A DNA stretch of 24,286 nt, from IMG/VR virus record IMGVR_UViG_3300047300_000516, positions 1 to 24,286 of that record. The stretch is one strand, 5' to 3'. Origin of the DNA: a virus. Each line of letters starts with the position of its first letter. Position 1 is the first letter of the stretch. Below the pieces are notes generated by a model, which was not told the DNA's origin, searched no databases, and was given only the letters and a program-made list of their open reading frames with translations. The position numbers and the translations under genes were made by a program. Shown piece by piece: positions 269-23,380 of the stretch.

Positions 269-296
269 TTGCGAAAAAAGTGAAATAGTGTATAAT
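269..296 (+). promoter_or_regulatory. Sigma70-like promoter upstream of the HNH gene
   Basis: TTGCGA at 269-274 is followed by a 16-base spacer and a perfect TATAAT at 291-296. It lies in the 146-base gap between the small gene ending at 254 and the HNH start at 401. It is the best bacterial-type promoter seen in the window and would start transcription around 303, just before the structured leader. This suggests that host RNA polymerase transcribes the early block; that is inferred from the match alone. Confidence 0.6.
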
Positions 297-5233: not shown

Positions 5234-5611
5234 ATGACTAAGAAAACAGATAAAGAACAAGCGACTGAAAAGAAATCAGTAGGACGCCCACGAGGCTACA
5301 GCCCTGGACTAAAAAGAGAAACTACGCACTCTTCGGGTGCATGGGAATGGAACACTAATTTTTTACATGCAAAAGTAGTTAAGGGCAAGAAAGCGGATTG
5401 CTGGGCATGGACTGGAGCAATTACTCCATATGGAAACGTTATCGGTGCTTATAAAAATGGCAAGAATCAAATGACCCAACCCAACAGATTGCTTGCACAT
5501 GAACTATATGGCATGCCATTAGACGAGAACCACACTGTCAAAATGAGTTGTTTTAATCGCTACTGCTGCAATCATAATCACTTCTTCATAAGAGAGAAAC
5601 AGCCCAAATGA
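5234..5611 (+). CDS. Degenerate HNH/zinc-finger-like DNA-binding protein
   Basis: A 125-residue basic protein. An AT-hook-like GRPRG is at residues 17-21. The C-terminal half follows the layout of small phage HNH proteins: CWAWTGAITPYGN, a conserved AHELYG, then VKMSCFNRYCCNHNHFF. The usual form of the last motif is VxHxCxNxxCxNPxHL, so here the first catalytic His is Met and only the Cys, Asn and final His positions remain. It may therefore bind DNA or zinc without cutting. Start chosen by AAAGGAAA upstream. It is first in a run of small genes and overlaps the next by ATGA. A still-active divergent nuclease cannot be excluded. Confidence 0.65.
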   Translation: MTKKTDKEQATEKKSVGRPRGYSPGLKRETTHSSGAWEWNTNFLHAKVVKGKKADCWAWTGAITPYGNVIGAYKNGKNQMTQPNRLLAHELYGMPLDENHTVKMSCFNRYCCNHNHFFIREKQPK

Positions 5612-6867: not shown

Positions 6868-6879
6868 ACTAAATATAGT
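6868..6879 (+). promoter_or_regulatory. Late-promoter-like CTAAATA element
   Basis: CTAAATA at 6869-6875 lies in a small dyad (ACTA AATA TAGT, 6868-6879), 23 bases before the start at 6899. If it works like a T4 late -10 element, transcription starts near 6881 and the leader is about 18 bases. It is the first of the TAAATA series in the window and marks the switch to virion genes. Confidence 0.45.
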
Positions 6880-6898: not shown

Positions 6899-8842
6899 AT
6901 GCCGCAAATTAAAAAGAGTTATTCAGAACTAACAGTACCGCTAACAAAGATGTCGTTCACTCCTGACGTGCCATCGGCAGCACTTACCAGCAATGAATAC
7001 AATATTGGTATCAACGTGGAAACAGATGTAAGAGGCATACGTTCAGTTTCCGGCGACGCAGAAATATTATCCAATGCTCCTGGTATCCCTACTTTTATTA
7101 CAGGCGGATTTAGAAACGCAGGAGAGTTTTGGTTCATAATGGCTAACCAAGAGGGCGAATGGTGGGCAAGCAATGGCGCTGGTGGCTGGACAAATATTAC
7201 TCCCCCTGCTCCTTATGATGGTTCTGTTTACTCACAAAACACTAACATATCTGAAGCGTGGAACGGCACTGTAGTTATTTTTAATGATGGCACTAATCCT
7301 CCGTTCTTTCTACAGGACGGAGTTATCACTAATCTTGTAAACTATAAGAACAACATTGCACCACAAAGTATCAGTAACATTGTCGTTGGTGTTACTACTG
7401 CAACTATTACTGTGCAAGACGACTATAACTTGTCAATAGGCTCAAGTCCTTTTAGTGCAGGTGATCAAATACTAATCACTAACGTAAACAACTATTATAA
7501 CGGAATTTATACAGTTGTTAGCAGTGAAGTATTATCTGCTACTGAAACAGAAATAGTTTACACGGCACAGCCTGGATCTGCTTACCCAGGCGGTGGCACA
7601 GTATCCGCAGCATATACATGGAATTATAACCCAAACTGGAAAAGTCTAAGCGCTGGATTCATGCGCATTTACTCTACACCAAACGTGGGCAACATTTTAG
7701 TAGCGGGCAATTTAACCGCCACAGACTTAGATAATGTTGTAACTAACTTTCCAGTATCCGTTGTGTGGAGTCAAGCGTTTGGACTTAACCAAGCACCGCT
7801 TACATGGGAACCAACAGTGCTAAACGTGGCCAACCAGTTAGAAGTTCCGCTACGTGGCACATTGTTAGATGCTTACCCTGCAAACGGAAACTTATATCTT
7901 GGCAGTTATTGGGATACAGTTGTATTCACTCCAATGAACTATTCGACAACTTCTGCTCCTATTCTGGGTGTTAGATTGTTTAACCAAGGTCGCGGATTGT
8001 TAAACACAAACTGCTGGGCCAACACAGACGATATGGTATATGGTATTGACGCACGTGACATATGGGCGTTTAATGGTCAAACATTCACAGGCATCGGCAA
8101 TCAACGTGTACGCCATTGGTTCTTTGACCAGTTAAATCAAGACTACATTAGCCGCGTGTATATGGAAACTAATACAGAGAAGAACCAAATTGAGATTTAC
8201 TTTCCTGATCATAATGCAGCAACTGAAGGACCATCTGCTGGCGTGCCAAACAAAATGATTTCTTATCGTTATGATTTGGACTGCTGGAACGCCCCCCGTG
8301 ACGTTAGTTTAGCAACCTTTGCATGTGAAAGTCCAGTATGGAGCGAAGCAAGTCCAGGTGTATGGACATTCAATCCTGCAAGTAGAACTATTGTGTATGC
8401 CAAAGGTGCAGAAGATGTTCCTATCGTTATGAAGGATCAAGGTTATGAGTTTATCAACGGCTTGCCTATCAACTCTACATTCCGTCGTGACAATATTAAA
8501 TTAGTCAAAGATTATAGCAGTAAGATTCTAGTGCATCGTGTGTTGCCAGAGATTGTAAACTTAAATGATAACAACGTGCAAATCAACCCAGTAGTAAATC
8601 CTGAGTTAGTTGGTGCAGTGGCAGCAACTGTAGAAGGCGCAAACTCTGTGGGTCAAGAGCCGCAGTTTGTGCAAGAGCAAACACTTATGTCTAATACTGA
8701 TTATCCATGGGTGCAGATAAATCAAAACGCACATCGCGTAAACAGTATAGAACTGAGCAGCGACACAGTAAACACTCCTGGAACAATTTGGATGTGCACC
8801 GCACTGACATTCCAGTTTACTGAGACGGAAGACGACCGCTAA
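6899..8842 (+). CDS. Virion protein, probable DNA-stabilisation/tail hub
   Basis: A 647-residue beta-rich protein. Its start (MPQIKKSYSELTVPLTK, then GINVETDVRGIRSVSG) and regular repeats of short strands and Gly/Asn turns resemble podovirus packaged-DNA stabilisation or tail tubular proteins that close the portal vertex, such as the P22 gp10 type. Residues about 155-240 (AGDQILITNVNNYYNGIYTV) look like an inserted small beta domain common in phage tail and fibre proteins. It starts the late block behind a TAAATA element, and its companion protein begins 19 bases downstream. There is only a weak GATGGA ribosome site, 13 bases away. The structural role is fairly sure; the exact homologue is not. 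Confidence 0.6.
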   Translation: MPQIKKSYSELTVPLTKMSFTPDVPSAALTSNEYNIGINVETDVRGIRSVSGDAEILSNAPGIPTFITGGFRNAGEFWFIMANQEGEWWASNGAGGWTNITPPAPYDGSVYSQNTNISEAWNGTVVIFNDGTNPPFFLQDGVITNLVNYKNNIAPQSISNIVVGVTTATITVQDDYNLSIGSSPFSAGDQILITNVNNYYNGIYTVVSSEVLSATETEIVYTAQPGSAYPGGGTVSAAYTWNYNPNWKSLSAGFMRIYSTPNVGNILVAGNLTATDLDNVVTNFPVSVVWSQAFGLNQAPLTWEPTVLNVANQLEVPLRGTLLDAYPANGNLYLGSYWDTVVFTPMNYSTTSAPILGVRLFNQGRGLLNTNCWANTDDMVYGIDARDIWAFNGQTFTGIGNQRVRHWFFDQLNQDYISRVYMETNTEKNQIEIYFPDHNAATEGPSAGVPNKMISYRYDLDCWNAPRDVSLATFACESPVWSEASPGVWTFNPASRTIVYAKGAEDVPIVMKDQGYEFINGLPINSTFRRDNIKLVKDYSSKILVHRVLPEIVNLNDNNVQINPVVNPELVGAVAATVEGANSVGQEPQFVQEQTLMSNTDYPWVQINQNAHRVNSIELSSDTVNTPGTIWMCTALTFQFTETEDDR

Positions 8843-9767: not shown

Positions 9768-10363
9768 CAGATATAGAAAAGCAACTGATATTTTTAAGAG
9801 AAGAAATAGAGCATAAAGCAATATACAGAACCAAACCAGGAACAGTACTGCCAGCAAAGCAGCCAAACACAATATACACTTGGCAGTTTTATCTACGTAG
9901 AGTATTGTTTGATCCAAAGTTTGTTTTTACGGCAGCGAACTTATTAGTTGAAATGCTGCCCTCTAAAGATGTTCAGTTTGCAGCATGTGAAGATGCAGGC
10001 GTGCCATTAGGATTAGCAATGAGTGCAGTTATAGATCAACCCCTGCTATCAGTTAAAAAAGCACGTAAGGCATATGGACTATTAAACTTCACAGAAGGAA
10101 CTATAACAGGAAAACCAATAGTATTAGTGGATGATTTAGCAGGAAGCCAAACAACACTAAGAACAGCGGCTGCAACATTACGAGCCTTTAAGGCAGAACT
10201 TGCACCTTGCTATGTAACGCTAATAAACAAAACAAGAAACACTCATGATGCGTATCTTAAAAGTAATCTTATCAGTTTGTTTACTTGCGCTGACTTTAAT
10301 CTTACATGGCAAGATTATATCGCAGCACACAACCGAGAACCGAATTTCGGTGCATATTTTTGA
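9764..10363 (+). CDS. Orotate-phosphoribosyltransferase-like protein
   Basis: A 199-residue type I phosphoribosyltransferase-like protein. The PRPP-binding loop is clear: IVLVDDLAGSQTTLRTA at residues 119-135, with Asp123-Asp124. Upstream, FAACEDAGVPLGLAMS (72-87) fits the GxxxAGxPLA region and VKKARKAYG (97-105) fits the RKxxKxxG flexible loop of orotate phosphoribosyltransferase. In that family the enzyme joins orotate to PRPP in pyrimidine synthesis. Here the usual TGGT of the loop is GSQT, so the base specificity is open. It overlaps the preceding structural gene by ATGA. A nucleotide gene inside a virion operon is unusual; it may support late nucleotide supply or be packaged. Confidence 0.7.
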   Translation: MTDIEKQLIFLREEIEHKAIYRTKPGTVLPAKQPNTIYTWQFYLRRVLFDPKFVFTAANLLVEMLPSKDVQFAACEDAGVPLGLAMSAVIDQPLLSVKKARKAYGLLNFTEGTITGKPIVLVDDLAGSQTTLRTAAATLRAFKAELAPCYVTLINKTRNTHDAYLKSNLISLFTCADFNLTWQDYIAAHNREPNFGAYF

Positions 10364-10364
10364 G

Positions 10365-10375
10365 TAAATAGTAAT
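10365..10375 (+). promoter_or_regulatory. TAAATA element placing the transcript start on the ATG
   Basis: TAAATA at 10365-10370 is followed by exactly five bases (GTAAT) and ATG 10376, with no Shine-Dalgarno sequence. T4 late promoters have +1 five bases after the TATAAATA element, which would put the first transcribed base at or next to the A of the ATG. This is one of four such sites in the window. Confidence 0.45.
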
Positions 10376-11560
10376 ATGAAAAATAAATCTCCACACTACC
10401 AAATTCCAGACATTACCGTATATGATGCAGACGGAAATCCGTTATCCGGTAAAGAAGCAGCACGAGCATTAAACGCTTATCTAGCACATATGGGACGCGG
10501 ACACGATTCGCTTGTAGCCCATATCAACGAGGATGAAGCAGAAATGCTAAAAGACGCTGGAGGTTCAGGTGCAGTCAATCCACACACAGGAATGATTGAA
10601 TTTGACGACGGCGGAGATGGCGGCGGAGATGGCGGCGGAGATGGCGGCGGAGATGGCGGCGGAGATGGCGGCGGAGATGGCGGCGGAGATGGCGGCGGAG
10701 ATGGCGGCGGAGACGCAGGTTCGGCTGGTGATTCTGGAGTAGGTGATTCTGGAGTAGGAGACTCCAGTGTAGGAGACTCCAGTGTAGGAGATGCAGCAGA
10801 TACCGGGGAAGCAGATTCGGGTATTGATGGCACTGAAGGTTCTGGAAATTCAGGCGGCGATGAAGGTGCTGATTCAGGAGAAAGTGAATCTTCTAATGAA
10901 GGTATAAGCGATGCCGAAGCCGCAACTGGCATTGTTGGTGTAGGTGCAAGTGATGCAGCAGCAGCAACTGGAAATAGTTCAAGTGTAGGCGATGACGCTG
11001 TAGGTGGCGACGTTGGTAACAATGACTTTGGTTCTGTAATAGGCAACACTATTGGTGAGATCGGCGAAGCAATCGGCGAAGGATTAGATGGCTTGTTCGG
11101 CGGCGATAGTGATTCAACTGGCTCAGTGGGCGATGTTGGCTCTGTTGGAGATGGCGGCGGAGATTCAACAGTAATCACTCCAGTAGTTCCAACAGGTCCT
11201 GGTTCCACTGCAACTGGACCTGTAACTCCAGTAGCACCAAAATATCTAAACCCTGGTATGATTGATACTACACCGTTTTACAAAACTACAAGCCCAGTGC
11301 AAAGTAAATTCTACTGGGGTGACCGTCCACTACAAACTGGCGCCACATTTAATGCACAAAAATGGAATGATGTTGCAGATGCTCCAACGACAGCATGGGG
11401 CTTACAACAATTTGGCACGCCGATGACTATGCAACAAGCCTTAGGCATATTACAAGGCACACAAACTTACCCACAACTAACGCCTGCAGAGCAAGCGTAT
11501 TTGTCTATGCTAGATCCTATGAGCGCACAGCAGTTTTTAGCAAGCAAGGGCATGAAATGA
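10376..11560 (+). CDS. Acidic Gly/Asp-repeat virion-type protein
   Basis: A 394-residue protein with an ordered start (YQIPDITVYDADGNPLSGKE, then RGHDSLVAHINEDEAEML), a central acidic linker of about 200 residues, and an ordered end of about 100 residues (NPGMIDTTPFYKTTSPVQSK, then PAEQAYLSMLDPMSAQQFL). The linker opens with eight GGGD units and then GDSGV/GDSSV repeats, continuing Ser/Asp/Gly-rich; a TGPVTPVAP linker precedes the end domain. The extreme acidity and Gly content point to a flexible spacer, perhaps an internal virion or fibre-anchoring protein. Two tandem repeats in its DNA may vary in copy number. No Shine-Dalgarno; it appears leaderless. No enzyme motif recognised. Confidence 0.65.
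   Translation: MKNKSPHYQIPDITVYDADGNPLSGKEAARALNAYLAHMGRGHDSLVAHINEDEAEMLKDAGGSGAVNPHTGMIEFDDGGDGGGDGGGDGGGDGGGDGGGDGGGDGGGDGGGDAGSAGDSGVGDSGVGDSSVGDSSVGDAADTGEADSGIDGTEGSGNSGGDEGADSGESESSNEGISDAEAATGIVGVGASDAAAATGNSSSVGDDAVGGDVGNNDFGSVIGNTIGEIGEAIGEGLDGLFGGDSDSTGSVGDVGSVGDGGGDSTVITPVVPTGPGSTATGPVTPVAPKYLNPGMIDTTPFYKTTSPVQSKFYWGDRPLQTGATFNAQKWNDVADAPTTAWGLQQFGTPMTMQQALGILQGTQTYPQLTPAEQAYLSMLDPMSAQQFLASKGMK
10619..10714 (+). repeat. Tandem repeat, 12 bp x 8, encoding GGGD
   Basis: Seven exact copies of GGCGGCGGAGAT plus a last copy ending GAC (10703-10714), in frame. It makes a GC-rich island in an AT-rich genome and could expand or contract by slippage without breaking the frame. Confidence 0.9.
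10727..10786 (+). repeat. Tandem repeat, 15 bp x 4, as two exact pairs
   Basis: GGTGATTCTGGAGTA occurs twice (10727-10756), then GGAGACTCCAGTGTA twice (10757-10786), encoding GDSGV and GDSSV. The paired pattern suggests two separate duplications of one ancestral unit. Confidence 0.85.
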
Positions 11561-11564
11561 AGTT

Positions 11565-11577
11565 GCTAAATATTAGC
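11565..11577 (+). promoter_or_regulatory. Late-promoter-like CTAAATA element in a perfect dyad
   Basis: GCTAAATATTAGC (11565-11577) is a perfect palindrome around its centre and contains CTAAATA at 11566-11572, 24 bases before ATG 11597. A start near 11578 would leave a leader of about 19 bases that carries the AAAAGGA ribosome site. Confidence 0.45.
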
Positions 11578-11596
11578 ATAAAAAGGATTTAATATC

Positions 11597-12334
11597 ATGG
11601 ACAGTTTATTCGGCGGCAGCAAAGAAACTAGCGTTAGTTATCTTCCAGAGCAAATACAAGACATTCAAAAGACATCTGCATTTAAGCATGGCACCATGCT
11701 ACCTGCATTTCAAAATTATCTTGGCACAGCACAAACAGGCTACAATCAAGCATTGCCTGGCATGATGAAAGCAGCCCAGGGTGGCGCAGGTTATGCAGGA
11801 CAAGTAGGACAAACACTAGGCGAAACAGGTGAAAGTGCAGCACGCACTGGTATCGCCGGCTTAGAAAGTTTCTTTGCTCCTGGTTATGGACAAGAACAAT
11901 TTGCCGCAGCAATGGCTCCTATACAAAGTCAATATCAACAAAATCTTGCTAATCAAGGTGCAACGTTTGGGGGTGCTGGACAAATGGGTTCTGCACGGCA
12001 AGCATTGGCACAAGGACAATTAGCAGGTTCTTCGCAAGCCGCACAGATGCAAGCAGCAGCAAACGTTATGAACCAAATCAACCAGCAACGTTTACAAGCA
12101 GGAAGTCAATTAGGACAATTAGGACAAGGCTATTTGCAAACAGGCTTAGGTGCAAAAGGCACCCAGTTAGGATTTGCAGAACGTCCAATGGACTGGACAA
12201 GCAATTTAGGCAAGCAATTGGCAACAGTGCCAGGTGCTGCTTATACTCCTACATACCCAGGACAGCAAGGTACAACTACTAGTGAGAGCCCAAGTTTGTT
12301 TGACATTGGCACTAAAATATTTGGTTTCTTATAA
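11597..12334 (+). CDS. Ala/Gly/Gln-rich virion protein, ejection-type candidate
   Basis: A 245-residue protein: MDSLFGGSKETSVSYLPEQI, then long helical Ala/Gly/Gln-rich stretches (YQQNLANQGATFGGAGQMGS, SQAAQMQAAANVMNQINQQR) and a short C-terminal end (SPSLFDIGTKIFGFL). This composition and the position just before the lysozyme-domain protein are typical of podovirus internal or DNA-ejection proteins, although sequence alone does not identify the family. It has an AAAAGGAT ribosome site and ends ten bases before the next gene. Confidence 0.55.
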   Translation: MDSLFGGSKETSVSYLPEQIQDIQKTSAFKHGTMLPAFQNYLGTAQTGYNQALPGMMKAAQGGAGYAGQVGQTLGETGESAARTGIAGLESFFAPGYGQEQFAAAMAPIQSQYQQNLANQGATFGGAGQMGSARQALAQGQLAGSSQAAQMQAAANVMNQINQQRLQAGSQLGQLGQGYLQTGLGAKGTQLGFAERPMDWTSNLGKQLATVPGAAYTPTYPGQQGTTTSESPSLFDIGTKIFGFL

Positions 12335-12344
12335 GGATTAAACG

Positions 12345-14897
12345 ATGACATACGATGTAATGGGTAATTATACAGGCTACGAGGGTCCGGTGGATCCTTA
12401 TAACTTTGAGGATGAAGAACGCCGCAAAGAAGAATTAAAACGCCAACTTGAAGAACAAGCCAAACAAGCAAGTGAATTAGCGAGTGAAGTAAGCAACAAG
12501 GAAGAAATCATCACTTATGGTGACGGAAGCCGCACGATTAAAACTACTCAAGAACTACCGAGCGAAGTTGCTCCAGTTGCTCCTGATCAAACTACTTACA
12601 ATGCTAATATTGCACGCCAAGAAAGTGGTGCTCGTCCAGACATTGGATACCACGATCCAAGTAAAGGCACTGCATATGGCACTTATGGTTTAACCTCTGC
12701 TGGTTATACAGATGCACGTAAGTTAAATCCTAACTTACCTGCTGACATTACGCAAGCAACCCCAGAACAGCAAACGGCTGCTATGGATGCGTACACACAA
12801 CAAAACGCAAAGTATCTACAAGGTTACGGAGTTGAGCCAACACAAAACAATTTGGCAGCAGCACATTTCTTAGGTGCTAAGGGACTTAGTGATTACTTAA
12901 AGTCTGGTTATATTAGTCCAGCAGCCGCACAAGCAAACGGTGGAGAAGAAAATGTTCGTCGTATTGTAAATCAACGATTGGGCGGACAAGCAGCACATGC
13001 ATCTGGCGCAGCACAAATTCAACCTACAGCGGGTCCAGTTGCTCCAGTAGCACCTACAGCAGAACAATATACAGGACAAGGCTTAAAAGCACCGGCAGCA
13101 CAAACTCCAGTAGTTGAAAGTAAAAGTTATATTGACCAGTATCAAAGTGCTCAACAAGATCCAGCAGCACTAATGAAATTAGGCACAGATGACAGCGCTC
13201 CTGAATGGATGCGTGATCGTGCTCGCAATCGTGCTGCTGACATTATCACGCAACAACGTGAAATGCAAAAAGCACAGGAAAAGTTATCCACTGCTAGTGA
13301 GACTGAATTAGCCAAGTATCTACGTGAAAAAACAACAGGCGGATCTTGGGTAAAGGCTATTTTCTACGCAGCAATTGGTGCTAAACAACTTGCACAAGAA
13401 GAAGGCGCACGTTTAGGTATCGGCACAGAAAAAGTTGTTATGGGTGCAGATGGCAAACCAAGTATTGTTAAAGTATCCAGCAACGGAACTCCATTAGAAG
13501 GCTACAATGCTGAAACAGGCGCACGTCTAACTCCAGAACAATTAGTAGGTGCAATGAGCGGAGCCGCACAAGGTAAAGTATCTACAAGTGCAGAACAATT
13601 CCAAGATAAAGAAGGCAACATTTATCGCAGCCAAAGCAATGAACGAGGTCAATTGGTTACTAAGAACATTGTAACTGGTGAAACTTACAAAGGTGATCCA
13701 ACTAAGTTAACTCGTGTGCGTGATGTTGCAACTGCCACCGCAGATGAACGTAAGCAAGGATTCCGTCGTGAGAATGATGCTACACAATTTGCCAATAACA
13801 TTCGACGTATGGATTATGACAGCAAACTAAAAGCAGTTGCTGAATTTAGACAAGCCGCTATCAATCGTGGTGAGCCAGATTTAACTGAAGATGAATTGGC
13901 TCGTATGGGTGTAAGTCGTCCGGATTTGGGTGCTGTTGGTCGTGCACCTGCTCAGGCTGCTCCAGTGGCACAACCTGCTCCAGTAACAGGGCGCGTCACT
14001 GCCCCAGTTGCTCCTACAGGCGCACCAGTTGGCGGTCCAGTTGCTCCAAGCACGGGCGTAACATCTATAACAGGACGCATGTCTCCAGAAGAGATGAAGC
14101 GTAAAGAAGCAGAAGCCAAACTTACCCGTGAAGCCCAAAGCCAAGTTGATGTAGACGAGCAAAAGCGTTACAACGAATATGTAGAAAAAGACATTCAGCC
14201 AAAAGCGGATGCTGGTAAGTTGATTAGTCGTGTTCGTAAAGAACAAATCAATGGTCCAGACGGTATTTTACGTAACCCAGAACTTGCTGGATTGATGCAA
14301 GGTAGCCAAGGTGGTGAAGTCGGTAACATTCTACGTGACTTACTAACTGGACAGTTCAAAGATCAAACTGATTTGTCTACTCGTGTAGCGGCATTAAACC
14401 TAACCGAAAGACAAAAAGCAGTTCTATACACACAAATTGGCTTAAACAACCAGATCCTACCGCAGACATTAAAGGCTAACGCAGGTCCAGGTGCTATCAG
14501 TGAAGCAGAACACAAGATCAACCGTGATGCTAACGTAGACATTACACGTCAACCTCTGTATTCTGGTTTAAGTCTAATGACACGCGACCAGTTTATGAAA
14601 GATGTGCAAGTTGCCAAGAACGACTTCCGCAGTGCTAACCCAGAGATTCGCAAAACAGATGCACTAAACAAAGCATGGGCAGGTCAAGAAAAGCGAGCAC
14701 ATGAAGCATATGATGGCATTTACGCTGCTCGTGCTGCTTACATTGCTAAACATAACCCAGCAGGCACCAATCCAAGTGCAGTTGTAGATGCATTCAAGCA
14801 TTATCCAGTTCCTACGTGGAATGGAAGCACATGGGAATATGGAACAGAGTATGCTAAGAAAGCAGCCCGCAAGCCTTTAGGCAGTTTTAACAATTAA
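12345..14897 (+). CDS. Large internal virion protein with lysozyme-like domain
   Basis: An 850-residue protein. Residues about 20-55 are a charged helix. Residues about 85-210 resemble a lytic transglycosylase/lysozyme-like fold: IARQESGARPDIGY with the candidate catalytic Glu93, then AYGTYGLTSAGY, then NNLAAAHFLGAKGLSDYL. Linkers rich in GPVAP (about 228-260 and 530-565) separate it from helical, Gln/Ala/Lys-rich segments that fill the rest. Podovirus internal core proteins carry such domains to open peptidoglycan locally during DNA entry. It lies between two Ala-rich virion proteins, with AAGGA before its ATG. The enzyme call rests on the motif pattern; strand lengths and a second catalytic residue were not established. 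Confidence 0.65.
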   Translation: MTYDVMGNYTGYEGPVDPYNFEDEERRKEELKRQLEEQAKQASELASEVSNKEEIITYGDGSRTIKTTQELPSEVAPVAPDQTTYNANIARQESGARPDIGYHDPSKGTAYGTYGLTSAGYTDARKLNPNLPADITQATPEQQTAAMDAYTQQNAKYLQGYGVEPTQNNLAAAHFLGAKGLSDYLKSGYISPAAAQANGGEENVRRIVNQRLGGQAAHASGAAQIQPTAGPVAPVAPTAEQYTGQGLKAPAAQTPVVESKSYIDQYQSAQQDPAALMKLGTDDSAPEWMRDRARNRAADIITQQREMQKAQEKLSTASETELAKYLREKTTGGSWVKAIFYAAIGAKQLAQEEGARLGIGTEKVVMGADGKPSIVKVSSNGTPLEGYNAETGARLTPEQLVGAMSGAAQGKVSTSAEQFQDKEGNIYRSQSNERGQLVTKNIVTGETYKGDPTKLTRVRDVATATADERKQGFRRENDATQFANNIRRMDYDSKLKAVAEFRQAAINRGEPDLTEDELARMGVSRPDLGAVGRAPAQAAPVAQPAPVTGRVTAPVAPTGAPVGGPVAPSTGVTSITGRMSPEEMKRKEAEAKLTREAQSQVDVDEQKRYNEYVEKDIQPKADAGKLISRVRKEQINGPDGILRNPELAGLMQGSQGGEVGNILRDLLTGQFKDQTDLSTRVAALNLTERQKAVLYTQIGLNNQILPQTLKANAGPGAISEAEHKINRDANVDITRQPLYSGLSLMTRDQFMKDVQVAKNDFRSANPEIRKTDALNKAWAGQEKRAHEAYDGIYAARAAYIAKHNPAGTNPSAVVDAFKHYPVPTWNGSTWEYGTEYAKKAARKPLGSFNN

Positions 14898-14908
14898 AAG
14901 GAACGAAC

Positions 14909-15712
14909 ATGGCATTTGATCGTGAAGCCGCAAAGGCAGAAGGCTATACAGAAGATGAGATCAACGCTTATCTTCAAGCAGAAGCAGAAAAGCAAAAGAA
15001 AACTGTAGTAGCAGATGTTGGGGAGCCTCCTGCTCCTACAACTCAAATTCAACAAGTTGAGCCAACAGCAAGTAGCATTGCTACTACGGCTGCACTTGGT
15101 GCGGCACCTTATGTAGTGCCCACAGCAGGTGCTTTGGGCGCAGCAATCGGTGGTAAAGCACTATATAACAGATGGGATGCTAGTGCAAAGGCTGCTCAAT
15201 CTCTCGCTGATGCAAAAATGGCCAGCGAACAAGGTATTGCAGCACGCGAAGCAGCAAGACAAGCAGCAAGAGCACCACTGCCGACAGGACCAGTTGCACC
15301 TACTGGCACGCCAACTTACAATGTCCCGACAAGTAATGTTCCGCAGCCAAGAGCACCACTGCCAACTACAGGACCAGTTGCACCCACATCACCTGCACCA
15401 GTTGCACAGGCAGCACAAGTTGCAGAACAAGCAGCGGTTCGTGCTCCTACTATGTTGGATAAAACTACTGCAATGATTCGTCAATTGGCAGCAAACAAAG
15501 TAGTTCAAAACTTAGGTAAAGGCATGACTGGTTTGCAAATGGCAACTTATAGTCCAGAATTAGGACCACAAACTCCTCAAACAGGCAGAATGAGGGGCAG
15601 TGAGATAAATCCAATGACGGGCCGACCATGGACCAAAGAACAATTGGCACAATACAGTGCAAACCCAAGTTTGTTCGACAGCCAATTACCACCGGCACAA
15701 ATGCCAAGATAA
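14909..15712 (+). CDS. Ala/Pro-rich virion protein with GPVAP linkers
   Basis: A 267-residue protein. The start, FDREAAKAEGYTEDEINAYL, is a short helical motif common at the N-terminus of phage internal proteins. Residues about 55-85 form an Ala/Gly-rich hydrophobic stretch (ATTAALGAAPYVVPTAGALG) that could enter a membrane. Residues about 125-170 are a Pro/Ala linker with two TGPVAP copies. The end is a proline-rich tail (SLFDSQLPPAQMPR). Its position beside the lysozyme-domain protein suggests a DNA-ejection role. AAAAGGA precedes the ATG. Confidence 0.55.
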   Translation: MAFDREAAKAEGYTEDEINAYLQAEAEKQKKTVVADVGEPPAPTTQIQQVEPTASSIATTAALGAAPYVVPTAGALGAAIGGKALYNRWDASAKAAQSLADAKMASEQGIAAREAARQAARAPLPTGPVAPTGTPTYNVPTSNVPQPRAPLPTTGPVAPTSPAPVAQAAQVAEQAAVRAPTMLDKTTAMIRQLAANKVVQNLGKGMTGLQMATYSPELGPQTPQTGRMRGSEINPMTGRPWTKEQLAQYSANPSLFDSQLPPAQMPR

Positions 15713-15721
15713 GGAAAAGAA

Positions 15722-16153
15722 ATGAACACGCAAGAATCACTTACACAAGTATTTTACAATAACTTTACTGCTTACTATCGCAGTCATGTTGCACATGTAA
15801 ACATTACAGGACGCAACTTTACCAGCGACCATAGTTTACTCGGCGGGATTTATGAAGACTTACAAAGTCAAATTGATGTTATTGCCGAACTACTAAGAAC
15901 ATTAGGTGAGTTAATGCCAAATGAAGTGCAGTTCGTATTGGATCAAAGCACAATTGGCACAGGAATTTTTGAAGGCGATAGCGAGCAGTTGCTCAGTGGT
16001 GTTAAAAAAGATTTAACAACACTTAAAGAGTTTTATGAAGAACTAATGATTGTTGCCGACAGTGAAGATTTGCAAGAAATTGCCAATTACGCACAAGAAA
16101 GAATTCTAGCACTGGGCAAACATATTTGGATGTTGGACGCTACACTAAGTTAA
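15722..16153 (+). CDS. Dps/ferritin-like protein
   Basis: A 143-residue protein of the Dps-like ferritin family, which forms hollow shells that oxidise iron with peroxide and protect DNA. The dinuclear-iron ligand pattern is intact: His25 (SHVAHVNITG), His37 (FTSDHS), Asp52 and Glu56 (IDVIAELLRTLG), with spacings 12, 15 and 4 as in classical Dps. The C-terminal KHIWMLDATLS also matches the usual ending. It lacks the long lysine-rich N-terminal tail some Dps proteins use for DNA binding. It sits between virion and packaging genes with AAGGAAAAG before its ATG, and meets the reverse GNAT gene tail to tail with a 4-base overlap. Whether it is packaged or acts on host DNA is unknown. Confidence 0.8.
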   Translation: MNTQESLTQVFYNNFTAYYRSHVAHVNITGRNFTSDHSLLGGIYEDLQSQIDVIAELLRTLGELMPNEVQFVLDQSTIGTGIFEGDSEQLLSGVKKDLTTLKEFYEELMIVADSEDLQEIANYAQERILALGKHIWMLDATLS

Positions 16154-16662
16154 GCAAATAAAGCAGCGGGTTTTGTTGTTAAGTCAACTTTTTTATAAGC
16201 AAAACTACCCCGCACAATATACCCCGCTGCTTTATGTAATTTTAGAAATGCATTTTGTTCTAGTCTAAGTGTATTGCTACTAATTAAAGGAGTATTTGTT
16301 ATTTGAGCGAATCGTTCCCAAATAGTAAGTTGATCTTTTAGCAGTAATATTCTAGAGCGAGGAGACAAGTTAGGATCAACGTGTGCCATAGTAACGTTTA
16401 TTATTTCCTCGGTGCTCCACATAGAATGATTGCCGCTTTTAGCCCAAGTGTATGCTAGAAGTTTGTTGTTAGAATCTCTTGCAAGTGCTACTAAATCCGT
16501 TTTACCAGTGTAGAATTGATTTACTAGTGCTAACGATAATTGATGCGCAAGCACGTTAGGATTAAAATTGAATATAGAATTGATTTCGTGTTGAACTAAT
16601 AAGTTCAATCCCATGATGTCATTGGCATCATTAATAGAGGCGTAAGTCCAAGAGTAGTTCAT
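16150..16662 (-). CDS. GNAT-like acetyltransferase, only reverse-strand gene
   Basis: A 170-residue protein starting at the ATG complementary to 16660-16662 (MNYSWTYASINDAND). The layout fits the GNAT fold: an N-terminal helix, a central strand with LVALARDSNNKLLAYTWAKS, then PNLSPRSRILLLKDQLTIWE in the acetyl-CoA loop/helix region, and RLEQNAFLKLHKAAGYIVRG as the usual final N-helix-aromatic-Gly motif. The classical RxxGxG/A loop is changed to SPRSRI, so cofactor binding is uncertain. It faces the + strand AT-hook gene across a 36-base divergent gap and is leaderless by the TAAATA-N5-ATG pattern. An in-frame upstream ATG at 16716 would run across that gap. Substrate unknown. Confidence 0.6.
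   Translation of the reverse strand: MNYSWTYASINDANDIMGLNLLVQHEINSIFNFNPNVLAHQLSLALVNQFYTGKTDLVALARDSNNKLLAYTWAKSGNHSMWSTEEIINVTMAHVDPNLSPRSRILLLKDQLTIWERFAQITNTPLISSNTLRLEQNAFLKLHKAAGYIVRGSFAYKKVDLTTKPAALFA
16158..16235. terminator. Long inverted repeat between convergent genes, possible terminator
   Basis: ATAAAGCAGCGGG (16158-16170) and CCCGCTGCTTTAT (16223-16235) pair perfectly over 13 bp around a 52-base loop. The repeat starts four bases after the Dps stop and lies in the 3' end of the reverse GNAT gene, where it encodes KAAGY and KPAALFA. Read on the - strand, the closing arm is followed by TTTATTTGCTT, which is moderately U-rich. A bidirectional terminator is plausible, but the loop is long for an intrinsic one. 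Confidence 0.35.
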
Positions 16663-16698
16663 AGTACTATTTAAGATAAACTTACTATAAATAATTAT
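16663..16698. promoter_or_regulatory. Divergent TAAATA promoter pair with leaderless starts both ways
   Basis: On the + strand TATAAATA (16686-16693) is followed by ATTAT and ATG 16699. On the - strand TTAAATA (16674-16668) is followed by GTACT and the ATG at 16662. Both spacings are exactly five bases, both starts lack a Shine-Dalgarno sequence, and the whole gap is only 36 bases. The + copy is identical to the T4 late promoter core TATAAATA. Confidence 0.5.
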
Positions 16699-17064
16699 AT
16701 GGAACAGAATAAACAAGAAAAGAAAAGCGAACCCGTTAAAGTCAAGGGTAAATGTGGCGGACCACGCCCAGGCTCAGGCAGACCAAAAGGGTCCAAGAGT
16801 CATATTACAATTGAAGGATTGCTACAACAAGTTTATGCCAAGTCTCAAGGACAAGATTATGAAGAATTGTTAATACAAGACTTTTTATCTGCCAGGGACT
16901 CGCATAATCAAGAGTTAACGCTAAAGTATCATAATTTGATCCTGAACAAAGTTATGAGTAGTTTGGCAAAGATAGAAGTGAATGAAGGCGCTGATGCAGT
17001 TGAAGCAAAGAAAATAGCATTTGCAGAAGCACTGGCTAAATTTAGCGGAGTAGATAAGGGCTAA
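16699..17064 (+). CDS. AT-hook protein, possible small terminase or DNA-binding factor
   Basis: A 121-residue protein with a basic N-terminus (MEQNKQEKKSEPVKVKGKC) leading to GGPRPGSGRPKGSKS, an AT-hook core (GRPKG) at residues 33-37. The remainder is helical (IEGLLQQVYAKSQGQDYEEL, DSHNQELTLKYHNLILNKV). AT-hook-like starts occur in many phage small terminases and in general DNA-binding proteins. Because it is separated from the large terminase by four genes, the small protein at 18569 is the closer candidate for that role. Leaderless start through TATAAATA-N5-ATG. Confidence 0.6.
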   Translation: MEQNKQEKKSEPVKVKGKCGGPRPGSGRPKGSKSHITIEGLLQQVYAKSQGQDYEELLIQDFLSARDSHNQELTLKYHNLILNKVMSSLAKIEVNEGADAVEAKKIAFAEALAKFSGVDKG

Positions 17065-17072
17065 ATAATGTT
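17060..17072 (+). promoter_or_regulatory. CTAAATA element with leaderless microprotein start
   Basis: CTAAATA at 17061-17067 overlaps the upstream stop codon (GGC TAA), is followed by five bases (ATGTT), and then by ATG 17073. With flanking GGC and GCC it can also form an imperfect dyad (17060-17078). Confidence 0.45.
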
Positions 17073-17135
17073 ATGCCGTTGAAGAAATTGGCACTACTAT
17101 CATTCAATAGAATGTATAAAGGAAAAAGTAAATGA
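17073..17135 (+). CDS. 20-residue leaderless microprotein coupled to the next gene
   Basis: A very short frame, MPLKKLALLSFNRMYKGKSK, whose TGA overlaps the ATG of the GRGPTxGN protein at 17132 (ATGA). Its ATG follows the TAAATA element by exactly five bases. It is basic and amphipathic. It may act as a leader peptide whose translation opens the downstream start, or as a small membrane-active peptide. Its length makes chance occurrence possible, but the two independent junctions argue for a real translated leader. Confidence 0.4.
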   Translation: MPLKKLALLSFNRMYKGKSK

Positions 17136-17461: not shown

Positions 17462-17715
17462 TGGCAACTAAAAACATCAATCAAAAGCGTGGTCCTACAG
17501 TAGGTAACGCAGGCACTGCTTCTAAGCGTGCTGACTTTATGGCTTCTAAAGCATCTAGTGGCAGTGAAAAATCTACATTAGCCAATATGGTTACTAGTGC
17601 ATTAGAAATGCGTGGACGTGGCACTGGTGCTAAAACTAATCCTGCATTAGAAGGCATTCATAGCAATACTAATGTAGGCCGCGGACCAACAAAAGGCAAC
17701 GCCGGTCGTAAATAA
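17461..17715 (+). CDS. Basic Gly-rich protein with GRGPTxGN motifs, copy 2
   Basis: An 84-residue basic protein starting at a TAATG overlap. It opens MATKNINQKRGPTVGNAG and ends NVGRGPTKGNAGRK, so the motif brackets it; the middle (FMASKASSGSEKSTLANM) is Ser/Lys-rich and possibly helical. The nearly identical NVGRGPTKGN ends in both proteins of the pair suggest a shared docking or packaging tail. A hairpin follows its stop. Function unknown. Confidence 0.6.
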   Translation: MATKNINQKRGPTVGNAGTASKRADFMASKASSGSEKSTLANMVTSALEMRGRGTGAKTNPALEGIHSNTNVGRGPTKGNAGRK

Positions 17716-17721
17716 AGAAAT

Positions 17722-17745
17722 AAGGGAGACACTAGTTCTCCCTTT
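17722..17745 (+). terminator. Hairpin after the GRGPTxGN pair, terminator or 5'-end stem
   Basis: AAGGGAGA (17722-17729) and TCTCCCTT (17737-17744) form a perfect 8-bp stem with a 7-base loop, followed by only one further T before the sequence leaves the T run. The weak T tract makes it a doubtful intrinsic terminator. A GTAAATA (17708-17714), overlapping the upstream stop, would start a transcript near 17720, so the stem could instead cap the 5' end of the next mRNA. Confidence 0.5.
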
Positions 17746-18870: not shown

Positions 18871-20484
18871 ATGCTGGGCAACGAAGTTTTAATGGCTCGT
18901 GCCTTGCGTTATGTAGTTGATGAGCACAATCTAACGGTTGATGCTCTAAAAACTATTCCAGGACCACTTAAAGAGCAACTACAAGATTTGTCTATGTCCG
19001 TTGCTCAAGATATGGAGCATAATCAACTCAAATACTTTAGACCATTTGAGCACCAAAAGAAATTCTTTGCAACAGGCGCAGCAGATCGCCGCGGTATCCT
19101 TGCCGCTAACCGAGTTGGTAAAACAGTTTCTACTTGTTTTGAAACTGCTATGCACTTAACAGGGCAATATCCTGCTTGGTGGAATGGACATCGTTTCAAT
19201 AAGCCAATCACTTGCATGGTAGCAGGTGAAGGTTGGAGTCAGGTTGCACTGGTATTGCAAAACGAATTATTGGGCACACAGGATGTAAAGATAACAGAGA
19301 ATCTTGGCACAGGTGCTATTCCTAGAAACTGCATTATAGCAGATACTATGCGTAATGATGGTGCTAACTGTATTGGTGTAGAAATCAAACATGTAAGCGG
19401 AGCAAAAAGTTATTTGTTATTTGCTAACTACACACAGGAAGTTAGGCAAATGCAAGGTTTCCGTTTGGACTTAGCAGTGTTCGACGAACAACCACCCGAC
19501 GACTTCTTCAGTGAAATCGTTACGCGAACTGCAACTACACAAGGTAAGGTATTGTGCTCGTTTACTCCACTTAAAGGCTTAAACGGACTTGTAAGTAAGT
19601 TTTGGAACAAAGAAGAAGGTTACGAATTCATTCGTGTATCATGGGATGACGTTCCTGAATACAGTCCTTGGGGAGAACCATTCTTATTAGCAGAAACTCG
19701 TCGTCAATTAGAACGAGATTATTTGCCCCATGAACGTGAAGCACGTATTGCAGGCAAGCCTGTTATGGGGAAGGGCGCTGTGTTCCAACTTAACAACTGG
19801 CCCACTTACAAAACAGGAGAATACGACTTTACTCGTATGCCAAACATACAACGAGTTATTTCACTCGACTTGGGTTTAGTAAACGACAAAACTGTTATTA
19901 GTTTAATCTACTGGGAGCCGCATGAAAAAACTGCATTTTTACATAAACAAATTGTTGTCCAAGGAGTTGAAGAAGCAGTTCCTACACAGTACATCAATCA
20001 CTTACTTCGTCCTGAGGTTTTTGGCTGTCCTATTGTTTTACCTGCTGATGCATCTACTCCTGGCAGATACACCATGAGTGCAAACTCAATTCGTGAACTA
20101 TTTGAACAGTATGAATTAAATGTGCTTCCCGATCCTATTATGAACCCTCCTGATAGTCAAGGACGCAGAACTAACCACAAGTCATTTGGTATCAACCAAA
20201 TGCGTCAAATGTTAGAAGTTGGAAGTTTAATGGTAAACGAAAACTGCACGCATTTTTTAAGTGAAGCACGCAACTATTTCGTAGATGAGAAAGGTCGCTT
20301 TAGTGACCCGGATGACTGCATTGACTCTGCTCGTTATGGATTGTTAGCATGTTTGCAGGGCATTGCAGAACCTTGGGATAACAGAACTCCACAGCAACGA
20401 ATGGCGGCTCAAAGAGATAGATATATAACTAGAGATTATAGTAACAAAGCAGCAGTAAAACAAATATACAATCCAGGTGGATAA
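18871..20484 (+). CDS. terL: Large terminase subunit (ATPase and nuclease)
   Basis: A 537-residue DNA-packaging motor protein. The ATPase has Walker A GILAANRVGKT (residues 75-85, the ANRxGKT form seen in P22-like terminases), Walker B LAVFDE (201-206) and the coupling motif SFTPLKG (230-236). The RNase H-like nuclease has candidate metal ligands Asp333 (SLDLG), Asp393 (PADAS) and Asp485 (DDCIDSARYG). It cuts concatemers and drives DNA into the prohead through the portal encoded downstream. GGTGGAGGA eight bases upstream is the strongest ribosome site in the region. All key motifs are intact. Confidence 0.92.
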   Translation: MLGNEVLMARALRYVVDEHNLTVDALKTIPGPLKEQLQDLSMSVAQDMEHNQLKYFRPFEHQKKFFATGAADRRGILAANRVGKTVSTCFETAMHLTGQYPAWWNGHRFNKPITCMVAGEGWSQVALVLQNELLGTQDVKITENLGTGAIPRNCIIADTMRNDGANCIGVEIKHVSGAKSYLLFANYTQEVRQMQGFRLDLAVFDEQPPDDFFSEIVTRTATTQGKVLCSFTPLKGLNGLVSKFWNKEEGYEFIRVSWDDVPEYSPWGEPFLLAETRRQLERDYLPHEREARIAGKPVMGKGAVFQLNNWPTYKTGEYDFTRMPNIQRVISLDLGLVNDKTVISLIYWEPHEKTAFLHKQIVVQGVEEAVPTQYINHLLRPEVFGCPIVLPADASTPGRYTMSANSIRELFEQYELNVLPDPIMNPPDSQGRRTNHKSFGINQMRQMLEVGSLMVNENCTHFLSEARNYFVDEKGRFSDPDDCIDSARYGLLACLQGIAEPWDNRTPQQRMAAQRDRYITRDYSNKAAVKQIYNPGG

Positions 20485-20909: not shown

Positions 20910-21053
20910 ATGGGTAAAGGCAGTGGAGCGAGACCTTTCGAAGTTCCAAAGGAACAATTTAGAGATAATTGGGATGCTATTTTTGGTAAGAAAGCCAAGC
21001 CAGCAGAGCAAGAATCTAAAGAAGAAAGTCCAGACAAAAATAACGCTAAATAA
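20910..21053 (+). CDS. Small conserved-looking protein before the portal
   Basis: A 47-residue protein, MGKGSGARPFEVPKEQFRDN followed by WDAIFGKKAKP and an acidic/Lys tail. The GKGSxxRPF...F..NWD.IF pattern resembles small proteins found just before the portal in many podovirus genomes. AATAAGGAAAT precedes the ATG. Function unknown; a portal or terminase partner is possible. Confidence 0.6.
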   Translation: MGKGSGARPFEVPKEQFRDNWDAIFGKKAKPAEQESKEESPDKNNAK

Positions 21054-21077: not shown

Positions 21078-23363
21078 ATGTTGGATATTAAACACGTACC
21101 AGTAACAGACATCAATCAAAACGTCAAGCAAAACGCTACATTCGTTCGTATGAAGAATATGATGGACGTTAAGATGGCAAGTTACCTAAGGTATCTAGGA
21201 ACTAAAAATGCTGTGAACCGTGCTTCGGACTACCACTATCTATGTCTCGCAGTTACTGATTCTACGGCGCCGGTAAATGGCATAGATTACATTCACCCTT
21301 CCGTCAAGCCAGTAGTAGATTATGCTACAGCAGTTATTGCCAAAGGTTTGATGCCCAACGGCGAAATCAACTTTGAATTCGTAGCAGACGGCGAATGGGA
21401 TGAAGAAGCAGCACGTCAAGCAACTAACATGGTTAGTAAAGTTGTAAACCAAATGAATGACCCGCACTTTATTTTAGAGCGTTGGGTTATGGATTCATGT
21501 ATGCACAAAAACGGTATGATGATGATCAAACCTGTACGTGAACAAGTAACTCGTTATGTAGAAACAGAAGGCACAAACGAACAACTTAAAGCATTTGAAT
21601 TGCAAGCAGCAGAATCCGGACTAACAACATTACGTCAAAGCAAACGCCAAGTTAATGTTAACATGGCAGCAGTTATGGCTGAAGTCCAACAACTACTTGG
21701 TAGTCAACAAAAAGAACTAACTGACAGTTTAATTGATAGTCACATTGCCAGCATGCGTGGTGCTGAAGATGACAGCAATTACGACACATTAGCAGCAGAA
21801 CAAAGTGCGATTTTCGCTGATCAAGTTATGGGCCAAGAAGAAATCGTCCAAGCAGCAATCAAACGCAATACATTTTATAAAGCAAAATACAAAGTAACAG
21901 GTTATGGACTAAACATCAAGTTCCATCCTATTGCACAGCACTATTGGATTTGTGATCCTACAGTTCCTGAAATGAAAGATCAACCTTTCTGCGGTTACTA
22001 TGATCCAATGACAATCCAAGAAGCAATGGACTTGTATCCAGATATTGACTTGGAAGAATTCCGCACACACGCAGAATTCAATATGAATGGAGCGTATCAA
22101 GCAGGTAGCGTATTAAACAACTTGGCTATTCACGCACGTGACTCTGTGCCAGTTATGGGTATCCCAGTTAGTTCTGCATCCTCTGCAGACCCAGACAGCA
22201 GACAAGTTTCTATTGTTACTGTATGGAACAAGTTTGACATTGATGGTGATGGCGAATTAGAATTAGTGGAAGTAATTTACTCGGGCAGTTATATTATCTC
22301 TGCACGTGAAGTTGAGTTTATTCCTGTTGCTAACATGTGTCCAAAGCCATTGCCGGGCAACTTCTATGGTATGAGTATTGCAGAATCTGTTATTCCAATG
22401 CAGGAATATGCAACAAGTGCTGCTCGTGCTGAAATTCAATTGGGCTTGCTAACTGCAACACCGCGTATTGGTGTTAAACCAGATCGTTTGGACTTTGAAA
22501 TGTTACAAGACGGCGAGTCTGCAATCTTTATCCTGGACAGTAAGTTTGATCCGGCAAAAGACGTTTACCAAATTCCTCCTCCAAGCGGCAACTTAAACTT
22601 CTTAGAAGTTGGTATGAACCGTATCCAACAAGATACAATGGCTATGATTGGTATGACTACTCCACAAGATGTATTCAACCCAGAAGTTATGGCAGCAGGC
22701 AACAGTGGTGTTAAACTACAGTTGGCTATGAGCCCTAACCAAATCATCCAAGACAACACTGTGCGTAACGCAGCAGAAGGCTTACGCGAAGCATTGTATC
22801 TAATTTGGCGCACTTTAATACAGTATGGTGATGACTTTGGTGTTAAGAAATTAGCAGCACAATGCAGCCCGGATAAGAAGCCAGTGTTCATGGATTATCA
22901 ATCATGGGACGATATGACCAGCATGACTGATCGCAAGCAATTACAATTGGAACTTGCATTAGGTATGCAAAGTGAAGAAAACGCATTAAACCGTTTGCAA
23001 GTAATTCAAAAGGCACAAACTGGATTGTATCAAACAGTTCAAGGTATGGTTGCACAAGGAACTCTTACTCCTGAAATTTACAAGAAAGTTAAAAAGCCAT
23101 ACGCTGATACACTTTATGTTTTAGGTGTTAAGGACTGCGACACTTACTTGCCAAGTGATGAAGAAATTGGTGCTATGATTAAACAAGCACAACAAGCAGG
23201 TGCAAACAAACAGCCAAGTCCAGAAGATCAAAAGGATATTGCACAAGCAGCATTGAGTCAAGCAAGAGCACAGCAAATTATGGCTGAAGTATCTGGCGAA
23301 GATGCTGAGTCGCAACTTGATATGATGTCTATGGCTATGGGTGATCCAAAGGTATATTCTTAA
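21078..23363 (+). CDS. Portal protein (P22/podovirus type)
   Basis: A 761-residue protein in the right place directly after the terminase block and before a probable scaffold gene. The N-terminal half has portal-like features: DYATAVIAKGLMPNGEINFE, then HFILERWVMDSCMHKNGMMM and YWICDPTVPEMKDQPFCGYY. A clip/stem region lies around PLPGNFYGMSIAESVIPMQE, and the C-terminus is helical (EDQKDIAQAALSQARAQQIM), as in portals whose helical barrel points into the head. A dodecameric portal would dock the terminase and later the tail. Length fits the P22-like portal family (about 700-760). No frameshift or truncation seen. Confidence 0.85.
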   Translation: MLDIKHVPVTDINQNVKQNATFVRMKNMMDVKMASYLRYLGTKNAVNRASDYHYLCLAVTDSTAPVNGIDYIHPSVKPVVDYATAVIAKGLMPNGEINFEFVADGEWDEEAARQATNMVSKVVNQMNDPHFILERWVMDSCMHKNGMMMIKPVREQVTRYVETEGTNEQLKAFELQAAESGLTTLRQSKRQVNVNMAAVMAEVQQLLGSQQKELTDSLIDSHIASMRGAEDDSNYDTLAAEQSAIFADQVMGQEEIVQAAIKRNTFYKAKYKVTGYGLNIKFHPIAQHYWICDPTVPEMKDQPFCGYYDPMTIQEAMDLYPDIDLEEFRTHAEFNMNGAYQAGSVLNNLAIHARDSVPVMGIPVSSASSADPDSRQVSIVTVWNKFDIDGDGELELVEVIYSGSYIISAREVEFIPVANMCPKPLPGNFYGMSIAESVIPMQEYATSAARAEIQLGLLTATPRIGVKPDRLDFEMLQDGESAIFILDSKFDPAKDVYQIPPPSGNLNFLEVGMNRIQQDTMAMIGMTTPQDVFNPEVMAAGNSGVKLQLAMSPNQIIQDNTVRNAAEGLREALYLIWRTLIQYGDDFGVKKLAAQCSPDKKPVFMDYQSWDDMTSMTDRKQLQLELALGMQSEENALNRLQVIQKAQTGLYQTVQGMVAQGTLTPEIYKKVKKPYADTLYVLGVKDCDTYLPSDEEIGAMIKQAQQAGANKQPSPEDQKDIAQAALSQARAQQIMAEVSGEDAESQLDMMSMAMGDPKVYS

Positions 23364-23364
23364 T

Positions 23365-23380
23365 ACTAAATAACAATAGT
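23365..23380 (+). promoter_or_regulatory. Late-promoter-like CTAAATA element after the portal
   Basis: CTAAATA at 23366-23372 sits in an ACTA...TAGT dyad (23365-23380), 31 bases before ATG 23404. The implied leader of about 26 bases contains AAAGGAAA. Confidence 0.4.

Follow-up and report, generated by a model that had tools for sequence, protein, structure and literature searches.

A T4-late-type TAAATA box and predicted leaderless gene starts in a lineage of podovirus-like phages

The virus record IMGVR_UViG_3300047300_000516 (24,286 bp, analysed over its full length and referred to here as the window) derives from a podovirus-like phage with a gene content unlike that of a T4-like myovirus. 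It contains exactly four gene starts at which the hexamer TAAATA is followed by five bases (N5) and an ATG. The spacing recurs at orthologous starts among about 140 relatives, and we read TAAATA as a promoter of the T4/Aeh1 late type that starts transcription about five bases on, such that genes at N5 would be leaderless while others, under the same box, have a leader with a Shine–Dalgarno (SD) sequence. We place the probability of this whole reading at about 0.82. The anatomy of the sites, the two-peaked spacing and its conservation, the terminators and the divergent boxes are observed; the exact start point and leaderless translation are what we infer from the sequences.

Four TAAATA-N5-ATG sites in the window

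An earlier note on this DNA had pointed to four such starts without an SD sequence, each with a different N5; all four are present, and none has an SD-like sequence between box and ATG. Three are on the plus strand. The box at 10365–10370 (N5 GTAAT, ATG 10376) is the predicted leaderless promoter of a Gly-Asp-rich gene; that at 16686–16693 (ATTAT, ATG 16699), the only one of the four to possess the full T4-type late box TATAAATA (TAAATA at 16688), is a predicted leaderless promoter conserved in relatives; and that at 17062–17067 (ATGTT, ATG 17073) occupies a conserved position of the same predicted kind. The fourth, on the minus strand at 16668–16673 (GTACT, ATG 16662), is a predicted leaderless promoter confined to the window.

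Box-to-start spacing across relatives

Relatives were gathered in two sets: 80 via the terminase (best-segment identity 82–90%) and 60 independent contigs via the AT-hook-like protein encoded from 16699. Eleven near-complete or complete whole records were also compared; the complete genome G021 is 38,992 bp long and has a terminal repeat of 127 bp. There is no close isolate, the nearest other genome being the metagenomic MW202484 (52% in the terminase, TerL). A search for a host hint via relatives in genome_contigs gave no match, nor did Rfam and tRNA searches. With tblastn, the starts of 22 orthologous groups were placed, and removal of redundancy left 596 upstream regions.

The distance from box to start is bimodal in these 596. 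A short class holds 18 starts at N4, 68 at N5, 9 at N6 and 2 at N7; four lie at N8–N15, and a long class holds 124 at N16–N31. An SD sequence accompanies 98 of the 124, whereas the short class uses ATG in 97/97 cases and has an SD sequence between box and ATG in 0/97. The search of related phages for the same spacing, as proposed in the earlier note, thus returned 97 short-class starts. In a scan of all hexamers at all spacings, TAAATA-N5 is among the top signals (77 occurrences, 4 expected), with only SD signals ranking higher.

Genes differ in their use of the two classes. All 21 starts of a gene of about 194 amino acids belong to N4–N7, all 23 starts of the MPL gene to N4–N5, and 27 of 31 starts of the AT-hook-like gene to N4–N6, two of the four exceptions being start-calling slips. 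The leaderless share is smaller for LYANIH (6/13), gene 23404 (14/34) and a ferritin-like gene, dps (4/26), and the minus-strand gene has a box with a leader in 26 of 29 non-redundant starts. The 60 contigs of the second set reproduce this picture, AT-hook-like starts included. The claim that the spacing is conserved therefore stands for the AT-hook-like and MPL starts and fails for the other two window sites, whose orthologues are leadered (about 60 relatives for the minus-strand gene, 8/8 for the Gly-Asp gene). Mapped to a TerL tree, gene 23404 shows nine or more changes of state, and the MPL and ~194-residue genes are always leaderless, with a few MPL exceptions in the second contig set. 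Upstream of MPL in two contigs, L134 (N5) and L195 (N4), TAAGTA stands in place of TAAATA, a possible variant box.

The outgroup MW202484 has no box before the 27 annotated genes examined, and its orthologues of MPL, the ~194-residue gene and 23404 are SD-led. Box and leaderless habit are thus traits of the lineage.

The box as a probable promoter

The ~194-residue gene is preceded by an intrinsic terminator that ends 20–46 nt before the ATG in 19 of 21 cases (1/21 when shuffled), and the remaining two also have a GC hairpin; a new transcript must therefore start in the gap that holds the box. The divergent pair 16662/16699 has boxes 14 bp apart in the window and 7–34 bp apart in relatives, which is too close for each to have its own −35 element; nor is a conserved −35 found at the boxes.

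Host-type TTGACA-N17-TATAAT promoters outside genes lie mostly in the early region, before early genes. Of 20 sigma70-type promoters, 13 overlap or adjoin a TAAATA box. The description of the box-led genes as late holds as a bias and is too strict as a rule, given this overlap with early promoters. Two other interpretations were dropped. TAAATA is not itself a sigma70 −10 element: its letters are wrong, it has no −35, and genuine TTGACA/TATAAT promoters exist separately. An apparent upstream element before early boxes in G021, AACTGAAT, proved to be the stretch right after the sigma70 TATAAT in G020 and G021.

Comparison with T4 late promoters and other leaderless systems

The lineage logo reads R-C/A-TAAATA with a T before +1 and no −35. 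In T4 late promoters, an 8-bp box precedes the start by one turn, again without a −35, and the Aeh1 variant has a/gC at −13/−12 (PMC2988020); the lineage letters at these two positions agree with the Aeh1 consensus (RC-TAAATA). The box found here is 8 bp long, TATAAATA-like and about one turn before the predicted start. Agreement extends to the start region. In the 32 TATAAATA sites of T4 itself, box +5 is T in 53% and box +6 a purine in 81%; at N5 leaderless starts, T falls at +5 and the A of the ATG at +6. A T directly precedes the start codon in 86% of leaderless starts and in 25–33% of other starts. Since this enrichment is restricted to leaderless starts, the T is part of the promoter and not of translation. 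Logo and start-point letters support the earlier proposal of a T4-late-type promoter whose N5 spacing sets the A of the ATG at the T4 start, the start itself being a prediction. What is expected of leaderless genes is likewise found: a −10-like box ending 4–7 nt before the ATG and kept in orthologues, with no SD sequence in the transcribed part.

The likeness to T4 thus comprises the TAAATA core, the missing −35, an A/T-rich start region and a T then purine at +5/+6; in addition, many T4 sites lie one leader-length before an open reading frame (ORF), like the leadered class here. The differences are as clear. The lineage has a small podovirus-type genome (~39 kb) in which no homologue of gp55, the factor that a T4 mechanism would imply, was found by profile. 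In T4, TATAAATA is never less than 13 nt from an ORF start, whereas N5 is a main class here, and TAAATA at N5 is at background level, with no peak, in both T4 and S-PM2.

Overlapping early and late promoters have been described for RB49 and the cyanophage S-PM2 (PMC2984593), akin to the sigma70 early promoters that overlap or adjoin the box here; S-PM2 differs in its lack of a leaderless peak. The Thermus phage phiYS40 has leaderless middle and late mRNAs (PMC3594737) and so shares leaderless post-early messages with the lineage. Its host, however, belongs to Deinococcus-Thermus, a phylum with phylum-wide use of leaderless TANNNT promoters (PMC12340547), whereas the leadered genes of the lineage and its outgroup use SD sequences, and leadered and leaderless genes of the lineage share one box. 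The TANNNT promoters resemble the box in abutting the ORF directly; they differ in that the lineage hexamer is TAAATA, with its last A fixed, and belongs to a phage promoter rather than, as far as is known, a host-wide habit.

Proposed mechanism

We propose that TAAATA, in the context R-C/A-TAAATA without a −35, serves the phage as a post-early promoter of its own, of the T4/Aeh1 late type, from which transcription would begin about five bases past the box. In one set of genes the ATG would coincide with the start point (N5, in some cases N4 or N6), giving a leaderless 5′-AUG mRNA on which initiation would proceed without an SD sequence, probably by the 70S ribosome. In the other set, the same box would be followed by a leader of 16–31 nt, usually with an SD sequence. 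In the window, leaderless starts would be shared with relatives at the AT-hook-like gene and an MPL remnant (17073), and new at the minus-strand and Gly-Asp genes.

Alternative explanations and the factor reading the box

Several observations weigh against this proposal. Orthologues of two of the four window sites are leadered; some members of the lineage have TAAGTA or no box at all; and a strict spacing of five bases misfits the N4 sites (18/97), unless the start point can shift by a single base. In leadered boxes, the favoured letters are A at +5 and T at +6. The A suggests that leadered transcripts may start at +5, and transcription probably begins anywhere within +5 to +6, a range that would accommodate the N4 sites as well. 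Finally, the gp55 profile (phrog_234) had no match in 29 records, the complete G021 included, and the profiles phrog_12791 and Sigma70_r2 had none in 17. These direct searches are the real test, the family listings searched for gp55 or sigma70 having covered the 25 most frequent families.

The sliding start also bears on an explanation in which the box is a promoter with a very short leader (1–3 nt) or mixed 5′ ends, in place of strict 5′-AUG messages. Start sites of transcription commonly vary by a base or two, from which this explanation gains; the N4, N6 and N7 variants (29/97) and the A favoured at +5 of leadered boxes speak for it too. We nevertheless consider it improbable, as N5 is dominant and the base before the ATG in most leaderless starts is T, a poor initiator. 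Much less credible still is the reading of TAAATA as an AU-rich signal for translation within a longer transcript. A same-strand run in which co-transcription is possible does contain three of the four window genes, but terminators directly upstream of one class, the divergent boxes, the presence of the same box 16–31 nt upstream with SD leaders, and the match to the T4/Aeh1 promoter logo down to the start-point letters all argue for a promoter. From the window alone, a chance origin might be entertained, favoured by AT-rich DNA and by TAA stops that run into the next start. Its excess of sites is modest (4 against 0.6 expected; mean 0.60 in dinucleotide shuffles, with at least four in 1 of 100), and the TAA of the 17062 box doubles as the stop of the gene before it (16699–17064). 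The TAA at 10365, however, is not a stop, the preceding gene ending with TGA at 10361–10363, and relatives such as L028, L039, L040 and L070 keep the N5 spacing with their stop codon elsewhere, so TAA stops do not account for the box. The comparative data refute chance: ~140 relatives share the spacing at orthologous starts, and 0/27 outgroup genes have the box.

Who reads the box is a separate matter, on which a host-encoded alternative sigma would fit the leaderless starts in place of a T4-like phage sigma. The negative profile searches favour it, as does the finding of no early gene common to all nine genomes compared. Against it, host-type sigma70 promoters drive the early genes while the box is late-biased, and a small diverged phage factor would evade profile searches; we regard a host sigma as unlikely, though far from negligible. 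The box may be read by a small diverged protein of the phage or by a factor of the host, and under the T4/Aeh1-type reading we infer a factor specific to the phage that confers promoter specificity on host RNA polymerase. The gene lists read showed neither a clamp nor a DNA polymerase, and the T4 co-activator gp33 and sliding clamp gp45 were not searched by profile. Two candidates were rejected. The only early family to approach lineage-wide presence, an HNH-like one, occurs in seven of the nine genomes and in both added genomes, and its alignment is that of an HNH-type protein, with some members lacking a catalytic His. The AT-hook-like protein gave a weak AlphaFold model of four helices (predicted local distance difference test, pLDDT, 68), for which fold searching found no convincing match and none at E ≤ 0.001.

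Genes at the four N5 starts

The Gly-Asp-rich gene (10376–11560, plus strand, 394 amino acids, family c11) matches nothing in Pfam or PHROG. In all eight relatives compared, its orthologue has the box and a leader of ~16–23 nt with an SD sequence. A long GGCGGAGAT repeat run at 10600–10720 encodes (Gly-Gly-Asp)n, and the family is highly variable and of low complexity in relatives.

The minus-strand gene (16150–16662, 170 amino acids, family c14) had been called a GNAT enzyme; a Pfam search gave it no match at E < 0.01 and no acetyltransferase. It is leaderless in none of ~65 relatives seen, and in about 60 it has the box and a 16–29-nt leader, mostly with an AAGG-type SD sequence. From this comparison, the window's copy has lost leader and SD sequence, leaving its ATG at N5; the predicted leaderless starts of the minus-strand and Gly-Asp genes are private to the window and new in this phage.

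The AT-hook-like gene (16699–17064, plus strand, 121 amino acids) has a GGxRPGxGRPKG N terminus by alignment and is conserved throughout the lineage. The 20-residue ORF downstream (17073–17135, plus strand; MPLKKLALLSFNRMYKGKSK), formerly taken for a microprotein, is instead an internally deleted remnant of the MPL gene of ~48 residues, because it retains both the MPLKK start and the KGKSK end of that protein (MPLIKST...KKGKSK in relatives). Its 3′ end contains the SD sequence of gene 17132, which the 17062 promoter may now serve.

Other boxes and genes in the window

TAAATA occurs 11 times in the window, nine times on the plus strand, and eight of these nine stand where a gene or operon begins (three leaderless, five with a leader). 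All boxes that follow are on the plus strand. Leadered-class boxes precede the virion structural gene 6899–8842 (box 6870–6875; 19–27 nt upstream in 9/9 orthologues), gene 11597 (box 11567–11572, SD AAGGA; 18/18 orthologues), the portal gene 21078–23363 (box 21047–21052, SD AAGGA; box and SD in 40/40 portals) and gene 23404 (box 23367–23372), whose orthologues alternate between leaderless (N4–N6) and leadered. The box at 17709–17714 is followed by a hairpin (17722–17744) and the SD-led gene 17763; this order, with a GC-rich hairpin, is repeated in six of nine genomes compared. The hairpin may be the 5′ hairpin of a message beginning at the box, or a terminator.

The terminase gene is located at 18871–20484, and the window further encodes primase/helicase and homing-type endonucleases. 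A Ferritin/Dps-like protein (15722–16153; Pfam Ferritin, E 1.4e-10) is a conserved member of the lineage's late module, and its gene is of the leaderless class in several relatives. In the early region, a sigma70-like promoter (269–296, plus strand, TTGCGA-N16-TATAAT, 10/12 consensus letters) lies upstream of gene 335 without a TAAATA box, the first plus-strand box of the window being that at 6870. Related small proteins of 81 and 89 residues (9–254 and 1032–1301) flank the HNH endonuclease gene 335–1081, an arrangement suggestive of an insertion that duplicated the adjacent gene. The HNH-like early protein at 5234–5611 has a leadered box conserved upstream in six genomes and lacks the first catalytic His in several members, the window's included; judged by alignment, it may bind DNA without nuclease activity. 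A small HExxH protein, by weak Pfam/PHROG matches an IrrE/M78-like metallopeptidase, adjoins the HNH-like gene at L208:959–1276 (G021) and L205:3008–3364 (G020).

Implications

Tentatively, and at slightly less than even odds, we suggest that a T4-late-type promoter with a factor unrelated to gp55 arose or was acquired in small uncultured podovirus-like phages, and that selection repeatedly fused promoter and start codon, with genes switching between leaderless and SD-led states under one promoter. This raises the question of what reads a T4-late box in a phage without a recognisable gp55. Leaderless messages are usually isolated cases or host-wide habits; here, a single promoter would yield two kinds of message in one phage lineage. 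The repeated switching of orthologues, at least nine changes for gene 23404, would amount to a natural experiment on what a leader is worth to a gene.

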